64,000 nt of DNA from Acidobacteriaceae bacterium. GTDB taxonomy: Bacteria; Acidobacteriota; Terriglobia; Terriglobales; Acidobacteriaceae. The notes under the pieces are model-generated. The model searched no databases. It worked only from the letters and a program-made list of their open reading frames with translations, and was not told the origin of the DNA. The DNA lies in the NCBI GenBank assembly GCA_025361625.1, contig JANYKL010000145.1, forward strand, positions 31,399 through 95,398, given 5' to 3'. Below, in pieces: positions 1 to 26,417 of this stretch. The position numbers and the translations under genes were made by a program. The stretch's first letter is position 1. Every line of letters starts with the position of its first letter.

Positions 1-56
1 AAGCGGCATGGAGCTATAGCGAGGAAAATAATCCGTTATCTGTTCATTGAGATTTT

Positions 57-1280
57 ATGGCTTGGCCGGTAGATAAAATAAAGCTCGATCGCGTGCGCGA
101 GCTCATGAAGGCGCAGGGTCTCTCGGCGCTCGTGTGTCGCGCGCCCGACAATGTTGTCTATTTATCAAATTATTGGTGCATGAAAGGCTACGACGCGGTG
201 GTTTTTCCGCAAGAGGGAGAGCCGACTCTGATTGCGCTTGAGCCGCAGCAGGCCGACGCAGAGCGCAATTCGTGGACGAAAGACATTTTATATTTCAAAG
301 GTTACGACGATCGCGATCCGCGGCCCCCCCAATTCCGCGCGTGGGATCGCGCCTACGAAGTCTTGAAGAGTCGTGGCTTAACCGACAAGATTGCCATAGA
401 ACTCAATATGGGCACCCAGGCTTCGGACCGAATGGTGGGGGAACCGACGACCTTCATGATGTCGTACTTTGAATCGTTCAAAAAGATTTGCGGCGAGGTG
501 GTCGACTCCACTCCTTTGCTCAATGAAGCTCGCTCAATCAAAACCGAGCAGGAAATCGAGCGCATGCGCCTGGCAAATGAACTCGCCGCGCTTGCCATGG
601 ATTACACGCGCGAGCACTTGCGGCCCGGCATGAAAGAGAGCGAAGTGGGCGCCATGTACGAAGGTTTCGTCCACGGTACCGGTGTTGGCTTCAAAGGCAA
701 AGTGGAAATGGCGCGCGCTTTCACGCTGGTCTGGTCGGGTAAGGGAATTGCGACGTTCACGGCGACCGGCAATCGGCCAATTCAAAAAAACGAGCCAACT
801 TTATTCGAGATCTGGATATGCGTCGATGGCTACTGGACCGACCTGACGAAGAACGCATGTCCTGGCGAGTTGACGCCCGAGTATCACAAACTACTTGATC
901 TTTTGCTAAAGGTTTTTCGTGACGCGGTAGACTTCGCTCGAGATAGTGCAAGCTTTCCGGAATTAGACAAACTCGTTCGCGCTCGTATCGCCGAGGGCGG
1001 GTATCCGGGACAGCCAACCCATCCCATCTGCCACGGAGTTGGAGCGCGCGCCCACGAATTTCCTTACGCGCACCAGGCGGGTGTCGGAGTAATAAAAAAA
1101 GGAATGGTGCTCGCCATCGAGCCGGGAATTTACTGGCCCGGCGGCGGCGGTCTGCGATTGGAAGACAACTTCTTGATAACTGAAAAAGGAAACGAGAAAC
1201 TGTGTACCGACCCAGACGACTTCCGGCTGGCAAAGCGGTCAAGCAAACAAGAGATAAAAGAAATGAAGACTGCGAACTAA
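57..1280 (+). CDS. M24 family (Xaa-Pro aminopeptidase-like) metallopeptidase
   Basis: 407 aa; creatinase-like N-terminal half plus pita-bread motifs WTDLTKN, CHGVGARAHEFP, VLAIEPGIYW, GLRLEDNFLIT. Confidence 0.88.
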   Translation: MAWPVDKIKLDRVRELMKAQGLSALVCRAPDNVVYLSNYWCMKGYDAVVFPQEGEPTLIALEPQQADAERNSWTKDILYFKGYDDRDPRPPQFRAWDRAYEVLKSRGLTDKIAIELNMGTQASDRMVGEPTTFMMSYFESFKKICGEVVDSTPLLNEARSIKTEQEIERMRLANELAALAMDYTREHLRPGMKESEVGAMYEGFVHGTGVGFKGKVEMARAFTLVWSGKGIATFTATGNRPIQKNEPTLFEIWICVDGYWTDLTKNACPGELTPEYHKLLDLLLKVFRDAVDFARDSASFPELDKLVRARIAEGGYPGQPTHPICHGVGARAHEFPYAHQAGVGVIKKGMVLAIEPGIYWPGGGGLRLEDNFLITEKGNEKLCTDPDDFRLAKRSSKQEIKEMKTAN

Positions 1281-1286
1281 AAGATA

Positions 1287-2561
1287 GTGTCCGCCTCCAC
1301 CCCAAACTCGAAGCCTGCGCTAGATCCGAAATTGATCGAGCGAATCGTTGCCGAAGTTCGCGAAGACGAACTCGTCTCCATGTGCGAAGACGTCGTAAAC
1401 ATACCCAGCCCGACAGGCGGCGAACTGCAGATGGCGGAGTACATGCGCTCGGCACTCGAAACAACCGGCCTCGACGTTACATGGCAAGAGATCGAAGAAT
1501 CGCGCGCGAACGTGGTTGGCCGACGCCAGGGTGTGGGTGGCGGCAAGAACTTGATGTTCAACGGCCACATGGATACTTCTAACACCGGCGACGAAGACTT
1601 TCTCAGCGGCATCGGGTACAAGCCTCACGCAGTGCTCAAGGATGGCTTCATTTACGGTCTCGGAATTTACAACATGAAAGGCGCGCTCGCCTGCTACACG
1701 AGCGCCGTCAAAGCCTTGCAGCGCGCTGGCATTCAGCTTAAAGGCGATGTGCTGATTGCCGCCGTCTCGGGAGAAATTGAAAAGACGCAGTGGGGAGAAT
1801 TCAAAGGCAAAGAGTATCGCGGCTACGGATGCGGCACCCACTATCTCGTCAATCACGGAATCCTTCCCGACCTCTGTATTCTCGGCGAGCCCACCGACAT
1901 GCATGTTGTACTCGAACATTTCGGATCGATGTGGGTGCGCCTCTCTTGTACCGGAATCTATGTTCACACTGCTTTCTGCGAAGGCCGCGAGGAAATGAAC
2001 TCCATTCGGCGGATGCTTGAACTTACGCAGCCAATCTTGAAGTGGATCGAAGCGTGGGGAAAAAAGGCCAGCTATGGCGGCAAAAAAGCCATCGTGAACC
2101 TGGGTGGGATTTCCGGCGGACATGCCTGGCGCGCCAGTCGAACTCCCGAAAAAACAAATTTGTTCCTCGATATACGCGTACCGCCTACTATCCCGCTGGC
2201 GGAAGCCCGTCGTGATATTCAAAATCTATTTTTCGGGTTAAAACGCGAACATCCTGACTGGGGGATGGAATTCGAAACCTACGTCTCGGTTCCCGGTGCG
2301 CGCATCAGTGAAGATCACGAACTGATTCGTGCCATCGATCGCAATCACAAGCACGTCACGGGTAAGATTCCCGAGCGCGAGGTTGTGACCTGGTGTTCCG
2401 ACGCGAGTGTGCTCAGCCGCTATGGTGTGGAAACCGTGAACTACGGTCCCTCGAGCGGTCCGCGCGACAAAGATGGCGAGAAAGTTTTGATCAAGACGTT
2501 AGTAGAGATAACAAAGATTTACGCATTGACCGCTGCTGAAATCTGCGGAGTCCATTCGTAG
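1287..2561 (+). CDS. M20 family (ArgE/DapE/carboxypeptidase G2-like) hydrolase
   Basis: 424 aa; MFNGHMDTSN, GLGIYNMKGALA, ILGEPTD motifs; 6 bp after the upstream M24 gene; GTG start. Confidence 0.85.
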   Translation: MSASTPNSKPALDPKLIERIVAEVREDELVSMCEDVVNIPSPTGGELQMAEYMRSALETTGLDVTWQEIEESRANVVGRRQGVGGGKNLMFNGHMDTSNTGDEDFLSGIGYKPHAVLKDGFIYGLGIYNMKGALACYTSAVKALQRAGIQLKGDVLIAAVSGEIEKTQWGEFKGKEYRGYGCGTHYLVNHGILPDLCILGEPTDMHVVLEHFGSMWVRLSCTGIYVHTAFCEGREEMNSIRRMLELTQPILKWIEAWGKKASYGGKKAIVNLGGISGGHAWRASRTPEKTNLFLDIRVPPTIPLAEARRDIQNLFFGLKREHPDWGMEFETYVSVPGARISEDHELIRAIDRNHKHVTGKIPEREVVTWCSDASVLSRYGVETVNYGPSSGPRDKDGEKVLIKTLVEITKIYALTAAEICGVHS

Positions 2562-2640
2562 AAAAGGCGCTTGTCCCTTATTCGTGGGACCCGGTGATGA
2601 CCCGTGCCGAGCCATTTCCCCGAAAGAAACCTTTACTGGA

Positions 2641-3798
2641 GTGAGTTACGTGCCGAGTCAGAAAGAAATCGACCGACGGTTCAAAAACATTCGCACGCGC
2701 ATGCACGCTGCTAAGTTGGACGCCATTATCGTCTGCGGCAATCAATATGCCGGTTTCGAGGGTGCGGTCTTTTATACCTCGGGTTTCGAAATCGTCCATC
2801 GCTATGTCTACGTTGTCATACCGCTAGAGGATGAGCCCACTTTGGTTTTTCCGCGCGAGGCCCGCTGGATCGGCGACAAACAAAAGCCATGGGTGAAGGA
2901 TCAGGTTTGGCCTGATGTGCCTGGGCAATGGGTGCGTGATCGCGCTGTCGAACGCAAATGGAAACGCATTGGCACCTTCGGCATGAATTTTGTAATGGCG
3001 GTTCGAGATTATCGCGAACTAGCTCAAGGCTCGTTCGAACTGGTGCCGTTTGATCAGGAATTCGACATGGCGCGCGCCGTTAAGAGCGACGAAGAACTTC
3101 TCGAAGTTCGTGATGCCATGGACATCGTGGTCGATGGATTCTGGGAACTGATTGCCAATTACAAACCGGGCAAAACCGAAGCCGAAATCATGGCGCCGGC
3201 AGTCGAACTTTTTTTCGCTCGGGGAGCCGGTCCGCGCATGATGAATATCTTGCTTTCTGGCGAGCATGGAGAGGCGAATGCCTTCTTTAAAGTGCCAGGC
3301 AACCGCAAGGTTTCAGGCGATGATCTTTTGCTCTATTCACTTGAGGTGACGGGAGCGGGCGGGTACTGGGTGGAATTTTCTCGAGCGCTGATTCAAGGGA
3401 AAGTGAGTGAGACAACACAACGCATGGCGGATGCGTACCCGCATGCAATGGAGTCGGCGCGCAAGTTAATGCGCCACGGCGAACTTGCCTCCAACGTTCA
3501 TCGAACCGTGGCAGATATATTTGCAAAACACGGTTTCGCTCTGGGCCATCTTTCCGGCCACAGCATCGGCATGACGATGCTGGAATATCCTGCGATTGGC
3601 GCGAAAAGTGAAGTGCCCTTGGAAGAGAACATGATCTTCTCCCTGCATCCGCAGGTCGTCGATCAAGAAGGCAAGGTCTGCCTCTACACGCAAGACACGT
3701 ATCGAATCGGCAAGTCTGAAGGAGAATGCCTGGCCGATGTTCCTTGGAAGTTTTACAACGGCGGGGAAACGCGAGAGAGCGTCAAAAACCGAGTCTAG
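2641..3798 (+). CDS. M24 family protein, creatinase/prolidase-like, with degenerate metal ligands
   Basis: ORF 2584-3798, likely GTG start at 2641 or 2650; M24 fold motifs (GHLSGHSIGMTMLEYP) but EPG->LHP and RLED->LYTQD. Confidence 0.8.
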   Translation: MSYVPSQKEIDRRFKNIRTRMHAAKLDAIIVCGNQYAGFEGAVFYTSGFEIVHRYVYVVIPLEDEPTLVFPREARWIGDKQKPWVKDQVWPDVPGQWVRDRAVERKWKRIGTFGMNFVMAVRDYRELAQGSFELVPFDQEFDMARAVKSDEELLEVRDAMDIVVDGFWELIANYKPGKTEAEIMAPAVELFFARGAGPRMMNILLSGEHGEANAFFKVPGNRKVSGDDLLLYSLEVTGAGGYWVEFSRALIQGKVSETTQRMADAYPHAMESARKLMRHGELASNVHRTVADIFAKHGFALGHLSGHSIGMTMLEYPAIGAKSEVPLEENMIFSLHPQVVDQEGKVCLYTQDTYRIGKSEGECLADVPWKFYNGGETRESVKNRV

Positions 3799-3868
3799 AG
3801 ACGGCGCTTGCGCCTTCCTCACAAGCGCGGAGAACCGCCTCTCTACAGAAAGTGCTGGGGTTTTAATT

Positions 3869-4795
3869 TTGCTTAAAATTTGCATTGTCGGTTGTGGAGC
3901 CGTTGGAAGCCTGTTTGCCGCTCATCTTGCGAAGAAAGGCGAGGTGGAAGTCTGGGCTTACGACGTTTCGAAAGAACATGTCGATGCCATTCAGAAGAAT
4001 GGTTTACGAATCTCCGGCGCCGCCGATTTCATCGCAAGACTCAATGCAACCAATGACCCTCTTAAATTGCCACGATGCGATTACGGTATTGTGGCGACCA
4101 AAGCCATCCACACGGCCTCGGCGATTAAGCAGGCCGCCCACGCCTTCGACGGGCAGAGCGCAGTTTGCTCAGTGCAAAACGGAGTGGGCAACGAAGAAAT
4201 TATCGCGGAGCGCGTGAAGCAAGTGATCCGCGGAACTACCTTTCCCGCCGGGCATCCCATCGCTCCCGGTCACATCGGTTTTGATATTAAGGGCGATACG
4301 TGGATAGGTCCTTTTGAAGCCACGGCCACACCGATGTCGAAGGTCGAGGAACTTGCGGGCTTGATCACTCGGTCTGGTATGAACGTGATTCCTCTGGCTG
4401 ATGCACGCGGCGCGCAATGGACCAAGCTGATCTTCAATGCCGCGACCAATCCGGTTGGAGCCCTGACATTATTACATCACGGCGCGGCAACCCGCTTTGC
4501 GCCGACCGGGCAGCTCTTCAATGATCTGATCAGCGAAGGCGAAACGGTTGCACGCAAGTTGGGCATCGAACTGCACGGAGATCCCCGCGCCCTCGTCCAA
4601 AAAGGAGCGAATGCTCCGGGCAAACACCGGGCGTCGATGTTGCAAGACGTTCTCGCGAAGCGCCCAACTGAAGTTGATTTTATGAATGGCGCGATTGTTA
4701 AGTGGGGCAAAATGACCGGAGTGCCGACGCCGCTGAACACGGCGATATGGCAACTCGTAAAGGGATTAGAACAAGGCTGGTCCGATCCCGACTGA
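3869..4795 (+). CDS. ketopantoate reductase (ApbA/PanE)-like NADP-dependent dehydrogenase
   Basis: N-terminal Rossmann motif KICIVGCGAVGSLFAAHLAKKG; likely TTG start at 3869 inside ORF 3737-4795. Confidence 0.82.
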   Translation: MLKICIVGCGAVGSLFAAHLAKKGEVEVWAYDVSKEHVDAIQKNGLRISGAADFIARLNATNDPLKLPRCDYGIVATKAIHTASAIKQAAHAFDGQSAVCSVQNGVGNEEIIAERVKQVIRGTTFPAGHPIAPGHIGFDIKGDTWIGPFEATATPMSKVEELAGLITRSGMNVIPLADARGAQWTKLIFNAATNPVGALTLLHHGAATRFAPTGQLFNDLISEGETVARKLGIELHGDPRALVQKGANAPGKHRASMLQDVLAKRPTEVDFMNGAIVKWGKMTGVPTPLNTAIWQLVKGLEQGWSDPD

Positions 4796-4883
4796 AGCTC
4801 GTGTTACTTCTGAGCGAATAAACAACCTAATTAAAGCAATCGCATACCGGTCCAGATAAGAATCGTATTAGGGAGCCGCCATC

Positions 4884-5957
4884 ATGACAATTCCTTTCAA
4901 CATCGGAGTTTTGCAACTTAGCATGGAGCCTGTTCAAGAAACGGTCGCCATGGCAAGAGCCTGCGAAGACGCGGGTTTTGACACATTTTGGATCGCCGAA
5001 GCCTACCCGTGGTGGCGCAAGCATTCCTTCGAAGCGCGCTCTTCGACGGCAATTCTTGCTGTAATCGCCAGTCAGACAAAAAAGATTTATCTCGGCTGGG
5101 GAATTATTTCTCCCTACACGCGGCATCCCGTCGAGATTGCGATGGAAGCACGCGTCATGCAAGATCTCGCCGGTGACCGTTTCCTTCTTGGCCTCGGCGC
5201 GTCGAAGATCTTCATGAAAGAAATCGGCGAAGGGGAAGGCGAAAAAGTAGGCCCGGCCACGGTCATGCGCGAGAGCATCGAAATAATTCGCGGCGTACTC
5301 AAGGGAGACAAATATGACTACCAGGGTAAAGTGTTTGCCGCTAGCGTTCCCCCGCTTAAAAGCGACGCGCACACTTCGCGAAAAATCCCGCCGATTTACG
5401 TCGCCGGAACAGGGCCGGCAATGCAGAAACTAGGCGGCTCGCTTGGAGATGGATTGCTTACGGCTTCGATAACGACTCCGGCGTTTGTCCGCTATTCGAA
5501 AAAGAATATGGAGGAGGGAGCAGCAAAGGCCGAACGCGATGCCTCGAAGTTAATTCTCGGATGCGTCGTTGTCGGCAGTATTGGAAGAGATTCAAGAAAT
5601 GGAAAAGAGGGAGCTCGCGAGCAGGCCGCGATGTACCTCGCCAATAAGGTGCAGAATATCAAGGGTTCGGCGGACGTTTTGCTCGAATCCGCAGGAATCA
5701 CTTTCGAAGAGCTGCAGCCCGTTGCTGATGCAATGGAAAAAGGCGGTCGCAAAGCGGCCGCCCGTGCCGTGAGTGATGAATTACTCCGCAAAGTTTGCCC
5801 GATTGCGGGAACCCCGGAAGAGTGCGTTGAGAAGATCAAAGAATATCGCGACGCCGGATGCACGCATATTATGCTCGAAATCTGGGGTGATGACCGAACG
5901 GGGCAGGCAAAATTATTCGGCGATGAGGTCTTACCGCACTTTCACGTTAAGGAGTAA
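4884..5957 (+). CDS. LLM class flavin/F420-dependent oxidoreductase
   Basis: 357 aa; luciferase-like pattern (FWIAEAYPWWR, YLGWGIISPYTRHPVEIAMEA, FLLGLGAS, PPIYVAGTGPAMQKLGG). Confidence 0.87.
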   Translation: MTIPFNIGVLQLSMEPVQETVAMARACEDAGFDTFWIAEAYPWWRKHSFEARSSTAILAVIASQTKKIYLGWGIISPYTRHPVEIAMEARVMQDLAGDRFLLGLGASKIFMKEIGEGEGEKVGPATVMRESIEIIRGVLKGDKYDYQGKVFAASVPPLKSDAHTSRKIPPIYVAGTGPAMQKLGGSLGDGLLTASITTPAFVRYSKKNMEEGAAKAERDASKLILGCVVVGSIGRDSRNGKEGAREQAAMYLANKVQNIKGSADVLLESAGITFEELQPVADAMEKGGRKAAARAVSDELLRKVCPIAGTPEECVEKIKEYRDAGCTHIMLEIWGDDRTGQAKLFGDEVLPHFHVKE

Positions 5958-8113: not shown

Positions 8114-9769
8114 TTAGGGATTGTTTCCTCCCGAGCTAAGAGCCGGAGCAGGATATTCGGGAAGTTTTTGCTTTGCGGCTTGCGTCCTTTTCACTTGCAG
8201 TTCGTCGAACAAGAGCGCCGGGCTCGCCACGCTATACCAAACCGGGTCTGGTCGATTCTCAACAGCCGGCTCAGTTCCCGCGGCACTTAATTCACTGCGC
8301 AGAGCGCGAACATCGAGGTCGCCGAAGACTCCGCCTCGCACCAGTTCCTCGTGACCATCTTTGGTGTAGACGCGATAAAGAAGGCGCGGCTCCAGCCGCG
8401 GCCCCATGGTCTCCACATAAAGTCCGTAAGGTAGATCGCGCTTCTGGCACAGTTCGATCAGCTTCTTCTTGAGATCCAGGTCAGCTTGCGGAGAAACCGA
8501 TTGCAGAACCAGATTGCCCGAATGAGGCGAAGCGGCGGTGCCAGCGGCGGCGCGCCCATGCCCATTTGACGTAGCGAAGTCGCGGATCGGCTGCCGTCCA
8601 ATGAGATATGCGACGAGTTGCCCCTTCTCGATTACCGAAATGCGCTGGCCTTTCACGCCTTCGTCGTCGAGAGAATATTTTCCAAACAAAGCATGGCCCG
8701 AAATCTCAGTGAGGGTTGGGTCGTCGTATACGTTGACGAAATCTGGCAACACGCGTGACTTGTAGCTGCTGGCCCACGCCCCCGTGGTGCGGGCGTTTTC
8801 TCCCAGCCGCGGCTTGTGACCCAAAACGTTCGGCTCAATCAAATCGCTGACTACAGTTGCGGCTGCATCATTCGAAAACAAGACTGGACCGCGATATTCT
8901 TCATCCACCACCGGAGCGCCACGTAGGGACTTGAGGGTTTCAAGTATCTTCGCCGCCGTTTTCAGAAATTCGTCCCGGCTTGGCAGTTCTTTTGGATCAT
9001 GACCTTGATCCGCGTGCGAGCGATGCAGCAACATCCCGTCCGACGCTTGCGTCGAACCCGAGATGGAAATTACGTAGTGTCCAGCGCCGGAGCGCGAGAC
9101 GGTCCCTTCTGAGTTGACGAAGTATCGATTCTCAACCCCAAAGCGGATTGCCGATTCAAAATTCTCCACCTCTTTGTCACTTCGGTAGAGAGCTGACGAA
9201 TCCTCCAGCAACTTTGTCCACGGCGTGAAGTCGGTGGTAGCAAGCCTGGCTAAAGGCTCGATGGCTTGCGCCGGTGTCGCCTTTGAAAAATCATCGACCG
9301 GCTCATCGACCTTTAATTGCTTTAAAGCGGCCTGCTTGGCAGAAAGCGCTTCCGTCGCAGCCTTGTAGGCGCGATCCGTAGCCAGCCAGATGCGGTGGCG
9401 GATGGCGTAAACGTCATTATCGGACGGGACGAGATCGATAGCTGCTTCGCCCTGGCCGAAGAAGCTGTCTTGTTTGTAATCCCCGACGCGAACCGAAACT
9501 CTCAGCAATCGAGCGTGAACCTGCTGCTGGCTGCGCAGTGCGCCGAACACCGCGCTGGCTTCGAATTGTTCGATCTCCGTGACGCGGTACTCGATGTAGT
9601 ACGGAGCTGCGACGTTCTCAAGTTTTAGTTGCGCCTTGGAGCGGTCCATCTCTTCACGGAGAGCCCGCAACACCGCGTCGTTCGAGGGATCCGCCGCAAA
9701 GGCCGAACCTGAGAGCCCTATCAAGATCGCGAAAAGCATTGTTGTCGTCAAAGCAGGCCGCATCTTCAA
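8114..9769 (-). CDS. TldD/PmbA-like secreted protein, partner lacking the HExxxH motif
   Basis: 551 aa with signal peptide; TldD/PmbA C-terminal pattern (GHGRAAAGTAASPHSGNLVLQS); HExxxH position reads SDLIEPNVLGHK. Confidence 0.75.
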   Translation of the reverse strand: MKMRPALTTTMLFAILIGLSGSAFAADPSNDAVLRALREEMDRSKAQLKLENVAAPYYIEYRVTEIEQFEASAVFGALRSQQQVHARLLRVSVRVGDYKQDSFFGQGEAAIDLVPSDNDVYAIRHRIWLATDRAYKAATEALSAKQAALKQLKVDEPVDDFSKATPAQAIEPLARLATTDFTPWTKLLEDSSALYRSDKEVENFESAIRFGVENRYFVNSEGTVSRSGAGHYVISISGSTQASDGMLLHRSHADQGHDPKELPSRDEFLKTAAKILETLKSLRGAPVVDEEYRGPVLFSNDAAATVVSDLIEPNVLGHKPRLGENARTTGAWASSYKSRVLPDFVNVYDDPTLTEISGHALFGKYSLDDEGVKGQRISVIEKGQLVAYLIGRQPIRDFATSNGHGRAAAGTAASPHSGNLVLQSVSPQADLDLKKKLIELCQKRDLPYGLYVETMGPRLEPRLLYRVYTKDGHEELVRGGVFGDLDVRALRSELSAAGTEPAVENRPDPVWYSVASPALLFDELQVKRTQAAKQKLPEYPAPALSSGGNNP

Positions 9770-11511
9770 TTTGAGCCGCCCTTCCCGTCGTTTGCTCCAG
9801 GCGGCGGAGGCAAAATCGGCGGTCTGGTATCGCCGTATTTTCTCTTCTGTACTTCCATCTCAGAGAACAAGATCGCAGGTGATGCGGCGGATACTGGTAC
9901 GCTCCCTGATTCCGCTCCGCAGATGCCGTTGAATACGCTGGTGGTGTCACCGGTGGCGGCAATTTGCGTTAAGACTGTGAGCGGAGTTCCGACGATATCG
10001 ACGCCGCGCACAAGTTCGTCCGGACGCCCATCCGCGTAGACGCGCCAGACCATTACAGGCAGAACCTGAAACGCCTGCGGCAAATCGCGCGAGGTTAACG
10101 TGAAACCGCCCTGAATATCTTCGAAGTAAAGACCGTAGGGCTTGCCTTGTTTCTTTATTTCTTCGATAAAACGGGTTCTCAGTTGAACGTCAGGAACAGT
10201 TCTTGAAGAAGTCACGATCAAGTTGCCTTGGCGTCCCACCGGCATCAATCCACTTTGCGCTCGACCATGGCCGTTCGAATTGCTGAAGTTCTTTACCGGC
10301 ATCCGTCCCATCAAAAAATTCTTCAGGATGCCATCTTTCACAACTTCGACGCGCTCGCTGGCGGTTCCCTCATCGTCGTATCGATAAAAGCCCGACAGTT
10401 CTGTACCGCCGAGAACATGCAAAGTCGGATCGTCGGTGACACTCAGGAACTCCGGCAGTATTTTTTCGTTCAACTTCTTGGTGAAGGTCTGGCCCTCATC
10501 ACGTCCGCGCTGGCGCTGCCCTTCGATTCGATGCCCGAGAACTTCGTGGAAGAACACGGCCGATGCTCTGCCAGACAGGAGTGCTGGGCCGCTGTAAGGT
10601 TGGGCTAGCGGAGCGGCCTTCAAGGCGCTAAGGTCCTTCGCCATCTTGTCGACGTTCTTCGCGATTTCAGCCTCAGACGGGAACTTCGCTGGATCGATAA
10701 ATTGATAAGTTTCGACCCTCATCAACTGCATACCGTCGTCGGCGCGCGTCTCCGCCTGGATCATGATCCGGAAGATGGCATCGGCGGTGACAATCTTTGT
10801 GCCCTCGGTTGAAACCAGATAACTGTGACTGTCTGACGCCAGCAGAAAAACGACCGACTCTTCAACCTGCGGGTACTTACGGAAGGCGCCCGAATAGCGC
10901 CGGGCCAAGTCTTCGCAGATCTTCTGTTCGGGAAAAACAGGTAACGGTGCCTGCTCGCGGTAAGTTGCCGGCTTCTCGTTCGAAAAGTCGGGGGAATCAT
11001 CCTCGTCTTTCGCGCGAACCGCGCTCTTAGTCTTCACCGTAGCGAAGGCTTGACGAGCCTTCCGATATTCGTCATAGGTCAGGCGCCACAAAACTCTAGC
11101 TATCGCATCGGGATCGTCACGTAGTGGAAGCTGTCCGCTGGTTATCCCGGAAGCCCGTTCCTGGTCGTGCGTGTTGTCGAGTGCCGGAGCCCCAATCCGC
11201 ATGCTCACGTCGGCAGTACGGGTGCGAGTTCTGGTCGAGTTCAAGATCGCGCCTTGAGCGCTAAGAATGACCAGCGAATCACCGTCGGTAACGTTGTAAC
11301 TCGCGAAATAAGGAACAGGGTCTTGTTTGGCAAGCTCGGCTTGACCGCGATGAAGTTCCTTTTGCATTGTGGAGAGCAGAAGGTCGTCGGTAGCGGCCCT
11401 TGGCGGGGGCATATTTGGTTTTTTCTGGCAGTAAGCCGGAGTAACTGTGGCAGCCGCGAAAAAAATAACCGCGAATAGGATTGTCAAAAGAGCGGACTTT
11501 CTAAAAGTCAT
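9766..11511 (-). CDS. TldD/PmbA-like secreted metallopeptidase with HEVLGH motif
   Basis: ORF 9766-11544, likely ATG at 11511 giving MTFRKSALLTILFAVIFFAA signal peptide; ASAVFFHEVLGHRIEGQRQRGRDEGQTF; overlaps next gene by 4 bp. Confidence 0.8.
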   Translation of the reverse strand: MTFRKSALLTILFAVIFFAAATVTPAYCQKKPNMPPPRAATDDLLLSTMQKELHRGQAELAKQDPVPYFASYNVTDGDSLVILSAQGAILNSTRTRTRTADVSMRIGAPALDNTHDQERASGITSGQLPLRDDPDAIARVLWRLTYDEYRKARQAFATVKTKSAVRAKDEDDSPDFSNEKPATYREQAPLPVFPEQKICEDLARRYSGAFRKYPQVEESVVFLLASDSHSYLVSTEGTKIVTADAIFRIMIQAETRADDGMQLMRVETYQFIDPAKFPSEAEIAKNVDKMAKDLSALKAAPLAQPYSGPALLSGRASAVFFHEVLGHRIEGQRQRGRDEGQTFTKKLNEKILPEFLSVTDDPTLHVLGGTELSGFYRYDDEGTASERVEVVKDGILKNFLMGRMPVKNFSNSNGHGRAQSGLMPVGRQGNLIVTSSRTVPDVQLRTRFIEEIKKQGKPYGLYFEDIQGGFTLTSRDLPQAFQVLPVMVWRVYADGRPDELVRGVDIVGTPLTVLTQIAATGDTTSVFNGICGAESGSVPVSAASPAILFSEMEVQKRKYGDTRPPILPPPPGANDGKGGSN

Positions 11512-11887
11512 TGGACGCGAGTCTAACAGCACTGAGGCAAACAAAAAAAGCGGCTTCTTGCGAGGCCGCCCTTTTGAAAGAGGCTAATTGGCGGGAATCA
11601 GAGGAAACGAGTTTGGACGCCGCTTTTGCAATCAAAACGGACAAAGTGGAGTCGAGAGTGAGGTTGTTTTATCAAGTACGACCTCTTCAATGCCTACTTA
11701 GTAAGCATTTCCCGAACCAAATGAGTAAACCAGCACGGAACTACAGCTACAGCCTGTAAGTGAATGTTGTTAGACAACTTAGCAGCTTTGACTTTGCTGC
11801 ATCGGTCTGGCATATCCTGGCAAAGGTGAAGAAAACTGCACTTAAAAAGTTTCAGGTCGTACTAAGGCAGCGAACAAATGCTGCTGG

Positions 11888-12634
11888 CTAGCTGTCCCCA
11901 GCCACAGTTCGAACCTTGCCGGGTAAGAAGTGGTAAGGCGGCCACGGTCCTGTCACTACCATTTGACAGTTCTTGAGTTGTTTGGCAGCTGTGCTGTATC
12001 GGTTCTGGTACTTCTCTATCGATTTCGTATCGATCAGGTGGGCAATATCGAGCAGCATCCCGTCCGAGTCGACCCTCTTGCAGCTTATCTCTTCTTCCAG
12101 CGGATTAAAAAGCTTGTGAACCTGCACCGAAAGCGCCCGGGCTTTGGTCTGGCGCTCCCGTTCGCGCGATGCCTTCTCCCGCAACTTGCAGAGATAGTCG
12201 CTGCCTACCGTATCCGGCAGCACAATTTCTGGCAGGGAGCCGCGCAAAGAGCCGTCACGCACCGTCAGTTTGATGCGCATCTCGGATTTGCCTCGCAATC
12301 GAGCCACGCTCTCACAGAACGTCCTGCGATTGGATCGTACGGACTGGCGAATGGCGTCCTCGGTATCGAAAATAGTGCCGAAGCGAAAAGGTAAAACGGT
12401 GGCGGTTCGGAAGCTCTGGCTGACGACTCTGGCATGCTCCAAAACAGATTTCTCATCGAGTTTTGCGGTCGCGCGGTCAAATTCGCTGACGATAACCGCA
12501 AATTCTCCGCTCGGATAACTCATTACTGGGGCTGAATTGACACCTTGAATACCATCAAGAAGGAAGGGTCGGCGGGCGCGAACACCGTTATGTAGAGTCT
12601 GGTGTTCGGTAAGGCAGTACGCGTACCACGACAT
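11888..12634 (-). CDS. GvpL/GvpF family gas vesicle-like protein (orphan)
   Basis: 248 aa; MSWYAYCLTEH, VSEFDRATAKLDEKSVLEHARVVSQSFRTATVLPFRFGTIFDTEDAIRQSV resembles GvpL/F. Confidence 0.72.
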   Translation of the reverse strand: MSWYAYCLTEHQTLHNGVRARRPFLLDGIQGVNSAPVMSYPSGEFAVIVSEFDRATAKLDEKSVLEHARVVSQSFRTATVLPFRFGTIFDTEDAIRQSVRSNRRTFCESVARLRGKSEMRIKLTVRDGSLRGSLPEIVLPDTVGSDYLCKLREKASRERERQTKARALSVQVHKLFNPLEEEISCKRVDSDGMLLDIAHLIDTKSIEKYQNRYSTAAKQLKNCQMVVTGPWPPYHFLPGKVRTVAGDS

Positions 12635-12903: not shown

Positions 12904-14451
12904 TCACCGACTCGCGCGTTCCTGCAAGGAAACAGTGACGGCGCGCAGCATGTCGCCGGTTGGAGCGGGCTTGCCCGTCCAAATTTCGAACTGGCGGGCA
13001 GCTTGTTGTACGAACATTTCGACGCCTGGAATCACCGCGAATCCCTTGCTCCGGGCAACCCGGATGAGACGGGTTTCGACTGGGTCGTAAACCATGTCGA
13101 ATACGACTTTGGCTTGAATCTCGTCATCCTTAAGCGGGCAGTCTTTGGAATTTCCCATTCCGACTGGAGTGGCGTTCACAATGACGTCGAATGCCGTTTT
13201 CTTCAGGTCCGCGCGCTTGATGCTGTGCGCTTTCGCCTGCCGGGCTAACTTTTGGCCCGACGCGGCAGTCCGGTTTAGAATCCACACTTCTGCACCCCGC
13301 TCACTGAGCCCGAAAACCGCAGCGCGTGCTGCACCTCCGGCGCCTAGCACCAGAATTTTGGCCTTGTCGATGGTGAGTCGCTGCTCCAATGGCCGAACCA
13401 CACCCGAGACATCCGTATTAAAGCCGTATAGCTTGCCATTCTGCCCACGGACGACCGTATTGCAGGCCCCAGTCTTTGCCGTGTGGGCGTCGGTGTTGTC
13501 GAGGTGCTCAAGAATCGCCTGTTTATAGGGCATAGTAACGCTGAGGCCGTGCAGCGGAATGTCGCGGATGCAATTGATCAGATCTCTCAGCGTCCTGGCG
13601 TGCAGCGGAAGGTAAACCGCGTTGACGCTCTCGCGCCGCATCGCCGTGTTCATGATCACCGGAGAAAGAGAATGCTCAACCGGATCGCCAGCGACGCCGT
13701 AGACGCGAGTGGCCGCGTCAACCTGCTCAATTCGATAGATGGATCGGAGGTCTCGTGCGCTAATCTGGCCTGGCGCCGTCTTCTGCAGCGGGCTCACCGC
13801 ACCGAAGGTGAAGATGCTCCCGGAACGCACGCTAAGCACCCGGCTGATAATCCCTTGCTCGCCCATGCACAGGCCAACTAGCGAATACTTGTCGCTGTTC
13901 GCCTGCAGAAACTTCATCATTGTGACGTTGTCGGAAAGGGTGGTTGCGGTCGTGACTACCTTGTAAAAGTCGGCGGGAACCTCCAACATGCTTGCAAGAG
14001 TGTCTTCAAGTTTGCGGGTGGCCTTGAAGTCATGCGACGAGATCAACAGTCGCCCGTGGCTTCGAAGGCGCGCTACTGCGTCCACCTTAGACTTCGAAGC
14101 ACTTTGAATTTCCAGATCCACAATTTGACAGCCGGCTGCGATGGCCTTCGTCAAGACTTCGAGCTGCGATGCCATCGAGCCTTTGAACTTCCCCCCATTC
14201 TCGCTTCGGCGGCAGGTCCCGATCGCGGTCACGTAATGGTGGGTCTCGAGAAAAGCTTTGATTTTGTTGAGCGCAGCTAGGGGCTGTTTCAGATAATCCA
14301 GCCGAAACTCCATGAAAGGGTTTTCCTGGGCCATTGACTCGGCCGCTTCCAGCATGTCGTCGACGGTATCCCCGCTTAAGGCCAGACAGACCTTGGGCAG
14401 TCGCGTGGAAAGCAGGAACGGAGTGACAGTGGACGGCGAAGACAGGGCCAT
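12904..14451 (-). CDS. aroDE: bifunctional 3-dehydroquinate dehydratase / shikimate dehydrogenase
   Basis: 515 aa; type I DHQase N-terminal half (FRLDYLKQP, LISSHDF, FYKVVTTA) fused to AroE (VAGDPVEHSLSPVIMNTAM, VLGAGGAARAAVFGL). Confidence 0.92.
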   Translation of the reverse strand: MALSSPSTVTPFLLSTRLPKVCLALSGDTVDDMLEAAESMAQENPFMEFRLDYLKQPLAALNKIKAFLETHHYVTAIGTCRRSENGGKFKGSMASQLEVLTKAIAAGCQIVDLEIQSASKSKVDAVARLRSHGRLLISSHDFKATRKLEDTLASMLEVPADFYKVVTTATTLSDNVTMMKFLQANSDKYSLVGLCMGEQGIISRVLSVRSGSIFTFGAVSPLQKTAPGQISARDLRSIYRIEQVDAATRVYGVAGDPVEHSLSPVIMNTAMRRESVNAVYLPLHARTLRDLINCIRDIPLHGLSVTMPYKQAILEHLDNTDAHTAKTGACNTVVRGQNGKLYGFNTDVSGVVRPLEQRLTIDKAKILVLGAGGAARAAVFGLSERGAEVWILNRTAASGQKLARQAKAHSIKRADLKKTAFDVIVNATPVGMGNSKDCPLKDDEIQAKVVFDMVYDPVETRLIRVARSKGFAVIPGVEMFVQQAARQFEIWTGKPAPTGDMLRAVTVSLQERASR

Positions 14452-22486: not shown

Positions 22487-25400
22487 CTATTTTTCGAGCG
22501 GCAAGAGCTCAAGGCTGCATCCGGAGCTCGAGCATTGCAGCAGACCCTGTCGAATAATTTTTACAGACGATACGTCCGGAAATTTGGTCGGGAAATCCAT
22601 TTGTCGCAGTTGTGAGCTCGCCGACCTGAGACTCTCGTCACCACCAAAAAACTCAACCAGCTCGGGGCGCGGCGAGCTGTCAAACACCAGGTTGAAGTGC
22701 GCCCTCCCATTCTTCGGCTTCAATCCATCAACCTTTAGAACGCGAGAACTTTTCAAATTTTCTCGAGCAGTCGCAATTTCGCGATCTACCTTTGCGGAAT
22801 CAGTCCAGAGCTTATCAAGTCGGTCGCGCGAAAGATGTTCTTGCTCGGACCCTCCCGCCGTAATCAACGCTAGAGCATACATATGTTCTGCCTTTGCCGT
22901 TTGTCCCTGCTTCTCATAAACCCGGCCCAAGCGATCGGCCACCGCGCTTGAGTTGCTCAGGAGCCATGCCGCATTCAGAAATTGCATCGCCTGAAGATTT
23001 TCATCGCGGCGAAATCGGGCCCACCCGATTCGTGCCCATGAGAGCGCCGTCAATCGCATGGCAGAAAGTGCAGCCATTCCGACGCGATCGAATTCTCCCG
23101 CATCGAACTGCGCTCCAATGTCGTAGAGCACCTGCTGCGCGTCGCTTTCGGATTGTGCAGGATCTACATCATCTCGCAATGCCGACTGGAAAACATCCTC
23201 CAAACCATTCATGTTCGGGTTCCCGGTAAGTTCCTGCATCAGCGGTTGCGCTTTTGCAGCTTCTCCGAGTCGCGCATACACCTGCGCCAAGGTCAGCTTC
23301 GCCTCCGGGTCCCCCGGCGGAGTTGCAACTACCGTCTCGAGCTCTGTGCGAGCTTCGGAATCACGCCGCAATTGCGCCAGAAGGAGCCCGAAATCCCGGT
23401 GGGCAAGTCGGTCGTACGGAGAAGCCCGCAACTGCAGTTGATATGCCGCCACGGCTTCGACATCGTTTCCGGTTTGCTGTAATTCAAAAGCCAAATTGCC
23501 ATTCGCGAGTTTGTGATTCGGATCCTTCTTGAGTTGCTGGCGGAAAGCGGCGATAGCTTTCGGGTGATCGGCAGCCCCCGCATAGGCCAAGCCGAGGTCA
23601 TACATTCCATCTTTCAGATTAGGGTCAAGTTCGTTGGCACGTTTCAGCAAAGCAATCGCCGCCAAAAAATTCTTCTCGTGTAACGCCTTGACTCCAGCCT
23701 GCTGCGACTCAGTTGACGTGCCGTCGAACTTCTTGCCGGCGTCGTCGGGCGCATGGACTGTTGGCGCGGCGATCGTGCAGGCGAGCGTCTGATCTTGCCC
23801 GCTCTCCGCCGCATTTCGGAACGAATCGTAATCTGCACGACGGGCTGCCGGAATTTCGTTGCTCTTAATAACGAGCTTGCGCTCGCCTTCGATAAGTCCT
23901 TTACCGACCGAATAGGTAGAGAAATAGTCGCCGTAATCGCGAGACATTTTGACGCCGCTTCGTGCGCGCACGGTGTAGTTGGCAGGGAAGTGCAGCTTTA
24001 CGCGATAGTCAATTTCGCCTGCGGGGCCAATATCGAGCGTCGCCACACTTCCCGGAGTGCCGTGCTCAGACTCGCGTGCCAGAGGCGCGCCCATCGGGGG
24101 CATTGGCATAAAGTTCACTTCGGCGGATGGAACGTGGAAATAATGCTCCCGGTACAACCGATATTCAAGATGAAATGGCTTGCTCGTATCTTCGACCGAG
24201 TCGAGAGAAACGTCTTCGACATCGCCCGCCAGCCCCCAGCTTTCAGAGAGCGATTTCACGTAAGGCTTCCACTGTGCCGCGGACATTTGCCGGAATGCCC
24301 TGCGCAGCGGCCAATCCCGGTCGCCCTGAGCGCTCAGCTCGATGGAAGCATCGAGTGCTCCGCTGTCGCTAAAACTCCCGTCGATACTGAAACGTAGAAA
24401 ATCAGCAACCGGAGAATCGGAGGGCGTGCGTTGCAACCCCCCTTCACTATCATCCGAAGCGAGCACAGCTTCTCTGTTTCGAAGCTGATAAAGAATCATG
24501 CCAAAGGGTGCAATTTCGGGAGTCGTGTCGAGCCATGTCAACTTGTCTCCAATTCGTACAGCGGTAATCACGTGGTCGAACTGCGCAGGCGACGGAACAT
24601 CGGGGTCGAGCTTACGGGAGCTGTCGATCAGCACCGGATAACTCTTGATCCCTTCTGCCTTAAGCATCACCGCAAACAGCGTGTGCTTGTCTTTGCAATC
24701 TCCATAGCTGTTTTGCAGAACTTCAATCGGCGGATGCGGCTGGTAGCGGCCAACTCCGAGCGAAACACTTACGTATCGAATATTTCGAGCGACAAAATCG
24801 TAGAGCCGCCGCGTCTTTTCATCCGGAGTCGCAGCCCCCCGGGTAATCTCGTCGGCGCGTTTTTGCAAGTCAGCACTTACCGTCATCCGCTCGCTTTGCA
24901 GCTTCGCATACCACTGCGCGATCTGCTTCCAGTCGGTGAAAGTACTTAGCTGAATGTCCGGGTGGGGACGGTCGCCTTCTTCGTTGGGCTGGGTATCACC
25001 CGGCTTTAGATTTTTCGCCTCCCAGATATAAATTCTTCGATCGCGGCTATCCTGAATCTCAGACTTTCTCGTGGGAGATTTCAGCTTGAGATCGCGGTTC
25101 TTCGGGACGTTAACTTCCAGCCGATTGTCTTCCACTACAACCCCGCGGGGAAACGTGTATTCGTACCAAAAATTTCCCGCCGCCAGCGGAGTTTCCACTT
25201 TGGTTACGGTGCGGTACTCAAGCACATCTCCCGCTTGTAACGCCGCCACGGAGATATGGCGCTGCCGGTAGTCGGTGTACATCGGAGCTTCGCGAAGCAC
25301 ATCGGGAGCGAAATCCTGCGCGCTGGATGCTGGCGTGACCACAACCTGTCCGTCGGGCTTCCGCACTCGAACGTATTCAATCTCCAAACTTTCGGTGGAT

Positions 25401-25690
25401 GGCGAGTAGCCAAAGACGAGCTGGCCGAATTCCTCGACTCCCGCCTGACTTTGAATCCTGACCACCGCTTCCGTCTCGCTAATTTCTTTTCCATCGTTCT
25501 CGAAGCGAACCCGATTCAATATGCGCTCGATAACGGCCGCTTCTTCGGCGTAAGCGTTCGGCTTTAGCGGGACAGGGGATTGTTTCGTGGGAGGCATTGT
25601 TTGCGCTTCAGATCTCTGGTCGAGTAGCGCAACGTTAGCGAAGAGAAAGCACAGGAAAGTAAAGAAGGCCAGCGACAAACGAAATAGCAT
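22487..25690 (-). CDS. DUF3857 / transglutaminase-like protein with TPR repeats
   Basis: 1067 aa; signal peptide, DUF3857-like N-terminus, transglutaminase Cys YGDCKDKHTLFAVML, His FDHVITAV, Asp WLDTTPE, then TPR. Confidence 0.85.
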   Translation of the reverse strand: MLFRLSLAFFTFLCFLFANVALLDQRSEAQTMPPTKQSPVPLKPNAYAEEAAVIERILNRVRFENDGKEISETEAVVRIQSQAGVEEFGQLVFGYSPSTESLEIEYVRVRKPDGQVVVTPASSAQDFAPDVLREAPMYTDYRQRHISVAALQAGDVLEYRTVTKVETPLAAGNFWYEYTFPRGVVVEDNRLEVNVPKNRDLKLKSPTRKSEIQDSRDRRIYIWEAKNLKPGDTQPNEEGDRPHPDIQLSTFTDWKQIAQWYAKLQSERMTVSADLQKRADEITRGAATPDEKTRRLYDFVARNIRYVSVSLGVGRYQPHPPIEVLQNSYGDCKDKHTLFAVMLKAEGIKSYPVLIDSSRKLDPDVPSPAQFDHVITAVRIGDKLTWLDTTPEIAPFGMILYQLRNREAVLASDDSEGGLQRTPSDSPVADFLRFSIDGSFSDSGALDASIELSAQGDRDWPLRRAFRQMSAAQWKPYVKSLSESWGLAGDVEDVSLDSVEDTSKPFHLEYRLYREHYFHVPSAEVNFMPMPPMGAPLARESEHGTPGSVATLDIGPAGEIDYRVKLHFPANYTVRARSGVKMSRDYGDYFSTYSVGKGLIEGERKLVIKSNEIPAARRADYDSFRNAAESGQDQTLACTIAAPTVHAPDDAGKKFDGTSTESQQAGVKALHEKNFLAAIALLKRANELDPNLKDGMYDLGLAYAGAADHPKAIAAFRQQLKKDPNHKLANGNLAFELQQTGNDVEAVAAYQLQLRASPYDRLAHRDFGLLLAQLRRDSEARTELETVVATPPGDPEAKLTLAQVYARLGEAAKAQPLMQELTGNPNMNGLEDVFQSALRDDVDPAQSESDAQQVLYDIGAQFDAGEFDRVGMAALSAMRLTALSWARIGWARFRRDENLQAMQFLNAAWLLSNSSAVADRLGRVYEKQGQTAKAEHMYALALITAGGSEQEHLSRDRLDKLWTDSAKVDREIATARENLKSSRVLKVDGLKPKNGRAHFNLVFDSSPRPELVEFFGGDESLRSASSQLRQMDFPTKFPDVSSVKIIRQGLLQCSSSGCSLELLPLEK

Positions 25691-25736
25691 CCTGCAGTTC
25701 TTTTACGCCGTGCCCAGCGTAAAATCAAACAGACGA

Positions 25737-26417
25737 ATGAGCCTACCTCAAAGCATGCGCATGGCTGCGGTCGTATTTTGCTTCGGCCTTTGTTCCAGCG
25801 CTTTTTTGGCTGCGCAAATTCCTCCGCTTGCGATCGTTGATCAGCCCCTTCCTTCGGTCGAGACAGACCTCGAATTTCACGGGACTCTTCATGCCACCGG
25901 AGGATATCCTCCATATACGTGGACGGTCACCAAAGGCGACCTGCCTGAGGGTATTTCTTTCGGTCCTGATGGGACGTTCTTTGGTCGCACAGAAAAAACT
26001 GGAAGCTTCACGGTGACGGTAAAAGTTGAAGATTCGCATCGCCCGCAAAACGTCGTCACCAAAGAAATCAAAATCGGATCCGTTTCCTCACTGGTGATCG
26101 ACTGGCAAGAGCCGCCGAAAGCTCACGACAACCGCATTGACGGATCGCTGCAGGTTACAAATGGTTCAACCGAAGGTTTCGATTTGACGGTGATTATTGT
26201 CGCTGTCGCAGGGGACGGCCGCGCAACCGCTATCGGCTACCAGCATTTTCCCCTGAACCCGGGCACAAAAAACCTTCAGATCCCCTTCGGCAACACGATG
26301 CCTTTCGGCTCTTACACGGTTCACGCCGATGCGATCGCGGAAATTGCCAAGAAAAATACAATCTTGCGCCGGCGGCTGCAAACCCTCAGCCCGATATCGA
26401 TTGTCCAGGGTCCTTAA
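25737..26417 (+). CDS. secreted protein with putative Ig-like (He_PIG-type) domain
   Basis: In-frame ATG at 25737 with signal peptide; LHATGGYPPYTWTVTKGDLPEGISFGPDGTFFGRTEKTGSFTVTVKVEDS. Confidence 0.78.
   Translation: MSLPQSMRMAAVVFCFGLCSSAFLAAQIPPLAIVDQPLPSVETDLEFHGTLHATGGYPPYTWTVTKGDLPEGISFGPDGTFFGRTEKTGSFTVTVKVEDSHRPQNVVTKEIKIGSVSSLVIDWQEPPKAHDNRIDGSLQVTNGSTEGFDLTVIIVAVAGDGRATAIGYQHFPLNPGTKNLQIPFGNTMPFGSYTVHADAIAEIAKKNTILRRRLQTLSPISIVQGP

Follow-up and report, generated by a model that had tools for sequence, protein, structure and literature searches.

Nicotinate fermentation brings together a molybdenum (Mo) hydroxylase, 6-hydroxynicotinate reductase, enamidase and hydroxymethylglutarate dehydrogenase, enzymes that hydroxylate the ring, reduce it, open it hydrolytically and reduce the resulting formyl or keto acid. 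The reductive uric acid pathway relies on the successive action of a xanthine dehydrogenase homologue, a dearomatising reductase and an M20-family enzyme (YgeY); its Chloroflexota variants are predicted to use an F420-dependent enzyme of the luciferase family (PMC12507026). Picrate degraders deploy F420H2 reductases of the luciferase-like (LLM) family on aromatic rings (PMC8498797), and degradation of 5-nitroanthranilate (5NAA) starts hydrolytically, through an aminohydrolase (PMC10306065). Here we analyse a gene cluster at the left edge of a 64,000-nucleotide stretch of DNA from an Acidobacteriaceae bacterium (the window), which encodes an M20 protein between two M24-fold proteins (M24a and M24b), two ketopantoate-reductase-like proteins (PanE1 and PanE2), an LLM-family oxidoreductase (LLM) and a Mo hydroxylase, next to genes for F420 biosynthesis. 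Whatever its substrate, the set is very probably an F420-linked catabolic system. Its parts belong to known families; the combination, a family resembling the 5NAA enzyme NaaA in two phyla and the linkage to cof and npdG genes are apparently new. No description of an F420/M20/M24 cluster was found in open-access papers, in keeping with an initial annotation that had proposed an undescribed multi-step system from five of the genes.

The reductive uric acid cluster (XdhD/YgfM, YgfK or UacX, SsnA, HyuA, YgeW/UacY, YgeY and YgeX) likewise combines a xanthine-dehydrogenase-family enzyme with a reductase and an M20 protein, and its predicted Chloroflexota variant shares an F420-dependent LLM enzyme with the present cluster. 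The present cluster instead has two M24 proteins, two PanE proteins, an FAA hydrolase and an HMGL-family protein, and its M20 protein is NaaA-like; SsnA, HyuA, YgeW/UacY and YgeX were found neither among the scanned operon genes nor among the recurrent neighbour families, lone loci not having been searched exhaustively. Picrate and dinitrophenol degradation (npd genes; Rhodococcus and Nocardioides) likewise uses LLM-family enzymes, F420H2-dependent hydride transferases, with an NpdG-type F420 reductase in a catabolic setting, but in bacteria from phyla different from that of the present cluster; these systems are not known to include a Mo hydroxylase or proteins of the M20 or M24 families. Nicotinate fermentation follows the same logic as the route proposed below, but with ferredoxin in place of F420 and with a ring reductase and hydrolase from unrelated families. 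Riboflavin catabolism was considered and rejected: its published steps do not match the gene set, and the paper describing them mentions no M20 protein or peptidase.

The five plus-strand open reading frames (ORFs) reported by the initial annotation are present at bases 57–5957 (Table 1), in the Pfam families it had assigned and with every score far above cut-off. They are, however, only the 3′ part of a longer operon that is cut by the window edge. The contig carrying the window (C25) provides 31 kb upstream of the window start; PanE1 ends at window base 50, 6 bp before M24a, and at least five further colinear genes precede PanE1 outside the window. Read leftwards from the window edge, the genes encode PanE1, a molybdopterin subunit, a CoxG-type protein, a 2Fe–2S subunit, an FAD subunit, a 579-amino-acid membrane protein, a TonB-dependent receptor and a GntR/FCD regulator; the CoxG-type gene was observed between the FeS and Mo subunit genes in relatives, and a matching gap is present in this genome. 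The initial annotation had advised a check for transporters upstream of base 1; the TonB-dependent receptor lies there, in the same operon. A promoter and terminator scan gave counts at or below shuffled expectation, so we delimit the operon by gene spacing and by the conservation of gene order. Two gene starts were revised: PanE2 most likely begins at the TTG at 3869 rather than at 3737, because its orthologues begin there, and the M24b start is uncertain between 2584 and about 2641.

Conservation was assessed in 80 loci from public genomes (61 Acidobacteriota and 19 Actinomycetota, nearly all of them metagenome-assembled genomes (MAGs)) and in 150 relatives, 31 of which carry M20. The order M24a–M20–M24b–PanE2–LLM is intact in 42 of the 61 Acidobacteriota loci. 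In 33 of the 61, the complete nine-gene core keeps its order; many others are cut by contig ends. LLM is present in every M20-bearing relative (31/31), and one genome has LLM without M20. The 19 Actinomycetota loci, which belong to deep-branching, Thermoleophilia-type lineages, contain the same enzymes at roughly 50–60% identity in a rearranged order, with LLM before M20; ORFs in these GC-rich genomes were called by a GC-frame method, and some antisense calls remain. Many of these loci have an FAA hydrolase gene between M20 and M24a, and some encode what reads from the sequence as a branched-chain-amino-acid-type ABC importer. In many Acidobacteriota genomes, FAA hydrolase and an isopropylmalate-synthase-like HMGL protein are encoded just beyond LLM; the FAA hydrolase occurs in 51 loci and the HMGL protein in 47. 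Gene order is therefore widespread in Acidobacteriota, and the gene set extends to a second phylum, which is the conservation beyond close relatives on which the initial annotation had made its proposal depend. Within the phylum the set is patchy, since M24b occurs in just 6 of the 396 genomes of a phylum-wide sample. A plasmid collection searched with M20, M24a, M24b and LLM gave no match, and hence no characterised degradative plasmid relative. As separate observations, one Acidobacteriota locus (L115:11288-20900) carries, after M20, four Amidohydro_3 paralogues that are each some 637 amino acids long and perhaps replace M24b, PanE2 and LLM, and the genome under study carries its own FAA hydrolase and HMGL genes side by side on a separate contig (L149:8700-11073, contig C12), orthologous to the cluster-flanking pair at 79% and 72% identity, respectively.

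A profile search of solved structures with the M20 protein returned NaaA (5k8m) at 7.4e-60 and DapE next at 1.5e-27, and a Foldseek search with the AlphaFold model (pLDDT 91) gave NaaA chains as all of the first 12 matches (TM ~0.85), followed by DapE; NaaA of Bradyrhizobium sp. JS329 (PDB 5k8m–5k8p) is the closest solved relative by both sequence and structure. Where DapE/ArgE-type enzymes have a bridging Asp, NaaA has Asn (N124), as does the M20 family (N129, invariant in 30 orthologues). Neither NaaA nor the M20 orthologues compared have the C-terminal His ligand, whereas DapE 7uoi and 3pfo keep both residues. NaaA and M20 also share a GEI(E/D) motif. The invariant R285 of M20 corresponds to Arg289 of NaaA, whose R289A mutant traps a tetrahedral intermediate, according to its PDB title. 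This Arg was dropped as a NaaA signature because Escherichia coli ArgE carries Arg in the same column. A dimerisation-domain His that is invariant in the M20 family (H227) is Tyr in NaaA. Against TIGR01910, M20 scored 172.6 bits, below the cut-off of 217.6. Lacking both the bridging Asp, which is Asn here, and the C-terminal His, M20 falls outside the canonical ArgE/DapE peptidases and deacylases; judged from these residues, it is NaaA-like in its metal site, and not a co-catalytic zinc peptidase or ArgE/DapE deacylase. A fold of NaaA type, structurally known from one enzyme, thereby gains a conserved family that spans two phyla. The 5NAA pathway itself goes on with a ring-cleaving dioxygenase (PMC10306065), not with F420, molybdenum or M24 enzymes.

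Six tightly packed minus-strand genes, in the order CofG–CofD–CofC–CofE–CofH–NpdG, start about 130 bp from the operon and are divergent to it. Each product scores above its NCBIfam equivalog cut-off, and by these assignments the block is a complete F420 biosynthesis set with the NADPH:F420 reductase NpdG; by gene content, the host makes F420. At locus L105 the linkage is closer still, with Mo–PanE1–M24a–M20–M24b–CofD–CofC–CofE–NpdG in one operon on the same strand, and cofG/cofD lie on the contig of M20, within about 50 kb, in genomes G003, G008, G021, G037, G041, G048, G067, G070, G071 and G081. Among the relatives, cofD is present in 29 of the 31 with M20 and in 49 of the 119 without (Fisher 4.5e-8, not corrected for phylogeny), and outside the host's own genus in 20/21 M20-bearing genomes and 36/105 others; the two M20-bearing relatives without cofD are incomplete MAGs (88% and 53% complete). 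The nearest solved structures to LLM are those of F420-dependent Mer (1.7e-35). From this relationship, the cof and npdG genes adjacent to or within the operon and the co-occurrence of cofD, we strongly infer that LLM uses F420 as its hydride carrier. F420 genes are known in Acidobacteria; according to a 2021 review, the group of phyla to which they belong had seen no experimental studies (PMC8498797). The cluster, with its own genes for F420 production and recycling, offers a concrete, testable role for F420 in these soil and peat lineages, most of which are uncultured.

The two M24 proteins differ in their metal sites. M24a is nearest to prolidases among solved structures (~1e-29), and its ligands E251, D262, H326, E355 and E369 are found in 25/25 orthologues, giving E/D/H/E/E against the canonical D/D/H/E/E with one conservative change, the first Asp to Glu. 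The corresponding M24b positions, from an alignment to 2zsg, are S252, E264, H326, H355 and Q370 in 27/27 orthologues with letters there, from both phyla, so that four of the five canonical ligands are lost (S/E/H/H/Q) and M24b was rejected as a canonical M24 metallopeptidase. On this residue pattern M24b has the M24 fold but not the metal site of the peptidases, as would be expected of a non-peptidase hydrolase, and it adds to the fold a subfamily lacking the canonical site. The non-peptidase M24-fold enzymes DoeA/EutD and creatinase likewise have an altered metal site, but M24b resembles DoeA_2 (54 bits versus 575) and creatinase (3e-11 by profile) only weakly, with prolidases scoring equal or better. 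Membership of the ectoine hydrolase DoeA was rejected, at 54 and 27 bits versus NCBIfam cut-offs of 575 and 613. Neither M20, whose grouping is with an aromatic aminohydrolase and not with characterised peptidases, nor the second M24 protein is thus an ordinary peptidase, in line with the initial annotation's remark that the two families are not limited to peptides.

Among solved structures, the Mo subunit best matches quinoline 2-oxidoreductase (1.4e-113). Assignment to aerobic carbon monoxide dehydrogenase (CODH) was rejected, the large subunit reaching 413 bits versus a cut-off of 991 for TIGR02416 and 490 versus 950 for NF040766; the NCBIfam glyceraldehyde dehydrogenase and CODH matches of the Mo subunit fall well below cut-off. 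Both PanE proteins exceed the TIGR00745 cut-off of 141.35 bits (PanE2, 221.7; PanE1, 210.4) and keep the catalytic Lys and Glu, which in PanE1 are invariant in 25 orthologues; the presence of two tandem copies argues for a substrate other than pantoate. The 579-amino-acid membrane protein (L002:10990-12729; contig C25 ~24389-26128) has no Pfam match. Three homologous modules, each some 175 amino acids long (z 12–23 versus shuffles), make up the protein, which has about 11 hydrophobic segments in all and a conserved HxH in each module. Most Acidobacteriota clusters keep its gene directly upstream of that for the FAD subunit. In other species, an FMN-type LLM and a flavin reductase are encoded upstream of the cluster.

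A route of hydroxylation, F420H2 reduction, hydrolytic C–N cleavage and keto-acid reduction fits the gene combination and has published precedents. The system may accordingly be read as F420H2-driven catabolism of a carboxylated, nitrogen-containing small molecule, most likely aromatic or N-heteroaromatic, a proposal we regard as evenly balanced. Its fuller form, an aerobic pathway of Mo hydroxylation, F420H2 dearomatisation of an amino-substituted or N-heteroaromatic acid and deamination or ring opening by NaaA-like M20 and metal-free M24, is offered more tentatively. After uptake, the substrate would be activated by the Mo hydroxylase, which would place an oxygen from water on an electron-poor carbon. 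NpdG would use NADPH to form F420H2, the hydride donor with which the Mer-like LLM would reduce and dearomatise the activated ring or C=N bond. NaaA-like M20 would then remove an amino group or open a C–N bond hydrolytically, and the two M24 proteins would make further C–N cuts, M24b doing so metal-free in the manner of creatinase and ectoine hydrolase. Reduction of the keto or formyl acids so formed would fall to the PanE enzymes; the FAA hydrolase and the enzyme of the HMGL family would deliver the carbon skeleton to central metabolism. The aromatic or N-heteroaromatic substrate and the order of the steps are inferred only. If true, F420H2-driven dearomatisation would be a physiological role of F420 in Acidobacteriota, common to deep-branching Actinomycetota.

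Several observations weigh against this proposal. M20 and NaaA are only about 25% identical, so the reaction may differ. CoxL matches the Mo subunit nearly as well as quinoline 2-oxidoreductase does, and for the Mo, FAD and FeS subunits the glyceraldehyde dehydrogenase models match no less well than those for CODH, making an aldehyde substrate possible. M24a, with its nearly complete metal site, may be a real prolidase-like peptidase, and in the fold search with M24b, creatinase and the ectoine hydrolase EutD could not be told apart from prolidases, for which reason we assign M24b to no subfamily. Many relatives without the cluster also carry F420 genes, indicating that F420 has other uses there.

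Some of these points feed the strongest alternative, the one closest to the original idea: catabolism that is likewise F420-linked but has a non-aromatic substrate, either an amide or a peptide-like molecule (proline-containing, pantoate-like or N-carbamoyl). Here M24a, prolidase-like with its five liganding residues, would hydrolyse amides in series with the other M24 and M20 proteins; the PanE enzymes, their active-site Lys and Glu intact, would act on the released keto or hydroxy acids; the Mo enzyme would oxidise an aldehyde, as the glyceraldehyde dehydrogenase matches of its three subunits suggest; and LLM would be an F420-dependent alcohol or imine oxidoreductase. The HMGL protein resembles isopropylmalate and homocitrate synthases, which take keto acids. 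We nevertheless consider this alternative unlikely, because M20 has neither the bridging Asp nor the C-terminal His of the peptidases and deacylases and is grouped with an aromatic aminohydrolase, and because M24b has lost the peptidase metal site. Of the initial annotation's pathway, the pairing of C–N hydrolases with oxidoreductases largely stands; F420 and the Mo hydroxylase had been missed, as had the upstream half, the divergent F420 operon and the FAA hydrolase/HMGL pair that accompanies the cluster in most relatives, and a peptide-like molecule is no longer favoured as the predicted substrate.

In a biosynthetic cluster, the hydrolases would trim a precursor and an F420-dependent LLM would reduce imines or C=C bonds of a natural product; there is precedent in F420-dependent reductases of natural-product routes such as those to 4-alkyl-proline derivatives (PMC8498797). 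This is very unlikely here: no scaffold-making enzyme (non-ribosomal peptide synthetase, polyketide synthase or ligase) was found in the neighbourhood, and the TonB receptor, FCD regulator, Actinomycetota ABC importer and FAA hydrolase/HMGL genes indicate uptake and breakdown, hence catabolism rather than biosynthesis. LLM, M24 and PanE are large, promiscuous families, but a loose assembly of broad-specificity detoxification enzymes with no single pathway is the least probable reading and already disfavoured by the order intact in 42/61 Acidobacteriota loci, by the linkage of the same enzymes, reshuffled, in a second phylum at 50–60% identity and by the almost perfect M20/LLM co-occurrence (31/31, with one LLM-only genome).

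Table 1 Cluster genes within the window and at its left edge.
Feature	Position in window	Strand	Evidence
PanE1 3′ end, second ketopantoate-reductase-like gene	1..50 (L002:17099-18049; contig C25:30498-31448)	+	ORF; ApbA/ApbA_C; TIGR00745
M24a, prolidase-like M24-fold hydrolase (predicted)	57..1280	+	PF00557 7.6e-38
M20, NaaA-like hydrolase (predicted)	1287..2561	+	Profile, Foldseek, residues
M24b, M24-fold protein without canonical metal site	2584..3798 (start maybe near 2641)	+	PF00557 7.9e-24
PanE2, ketopantoate-reductase-like NAD(P)H dehydrogenase	3869..4795 (listed ORF 3737-4795)	+	TIGR00745
LLM, Mer-like luciferase-family oxidoreductase, predicted F420-dependent	4884..5957	+	PF00296 3.9e-57

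Elsewhere in the window, on the minus strand, two different TldD/PmbA-type proteins are encoded in tandem at 8114-11544 (PF19289, 1.7e-15 and 7e-30) and have signal-like N-termini; TldD/PmbA proteins are normally cytosolic. A gas vesicle protein of the GvpL/GvpF family (PF06386, 2.9e-47) is encoded at 11888-12634 on the minus strand of this soil acidobacterium, and at 12904-14451, also on the minus strand, type I 3-dehydroquinase and shikimate dehydrogenase are fused in a single ORF.

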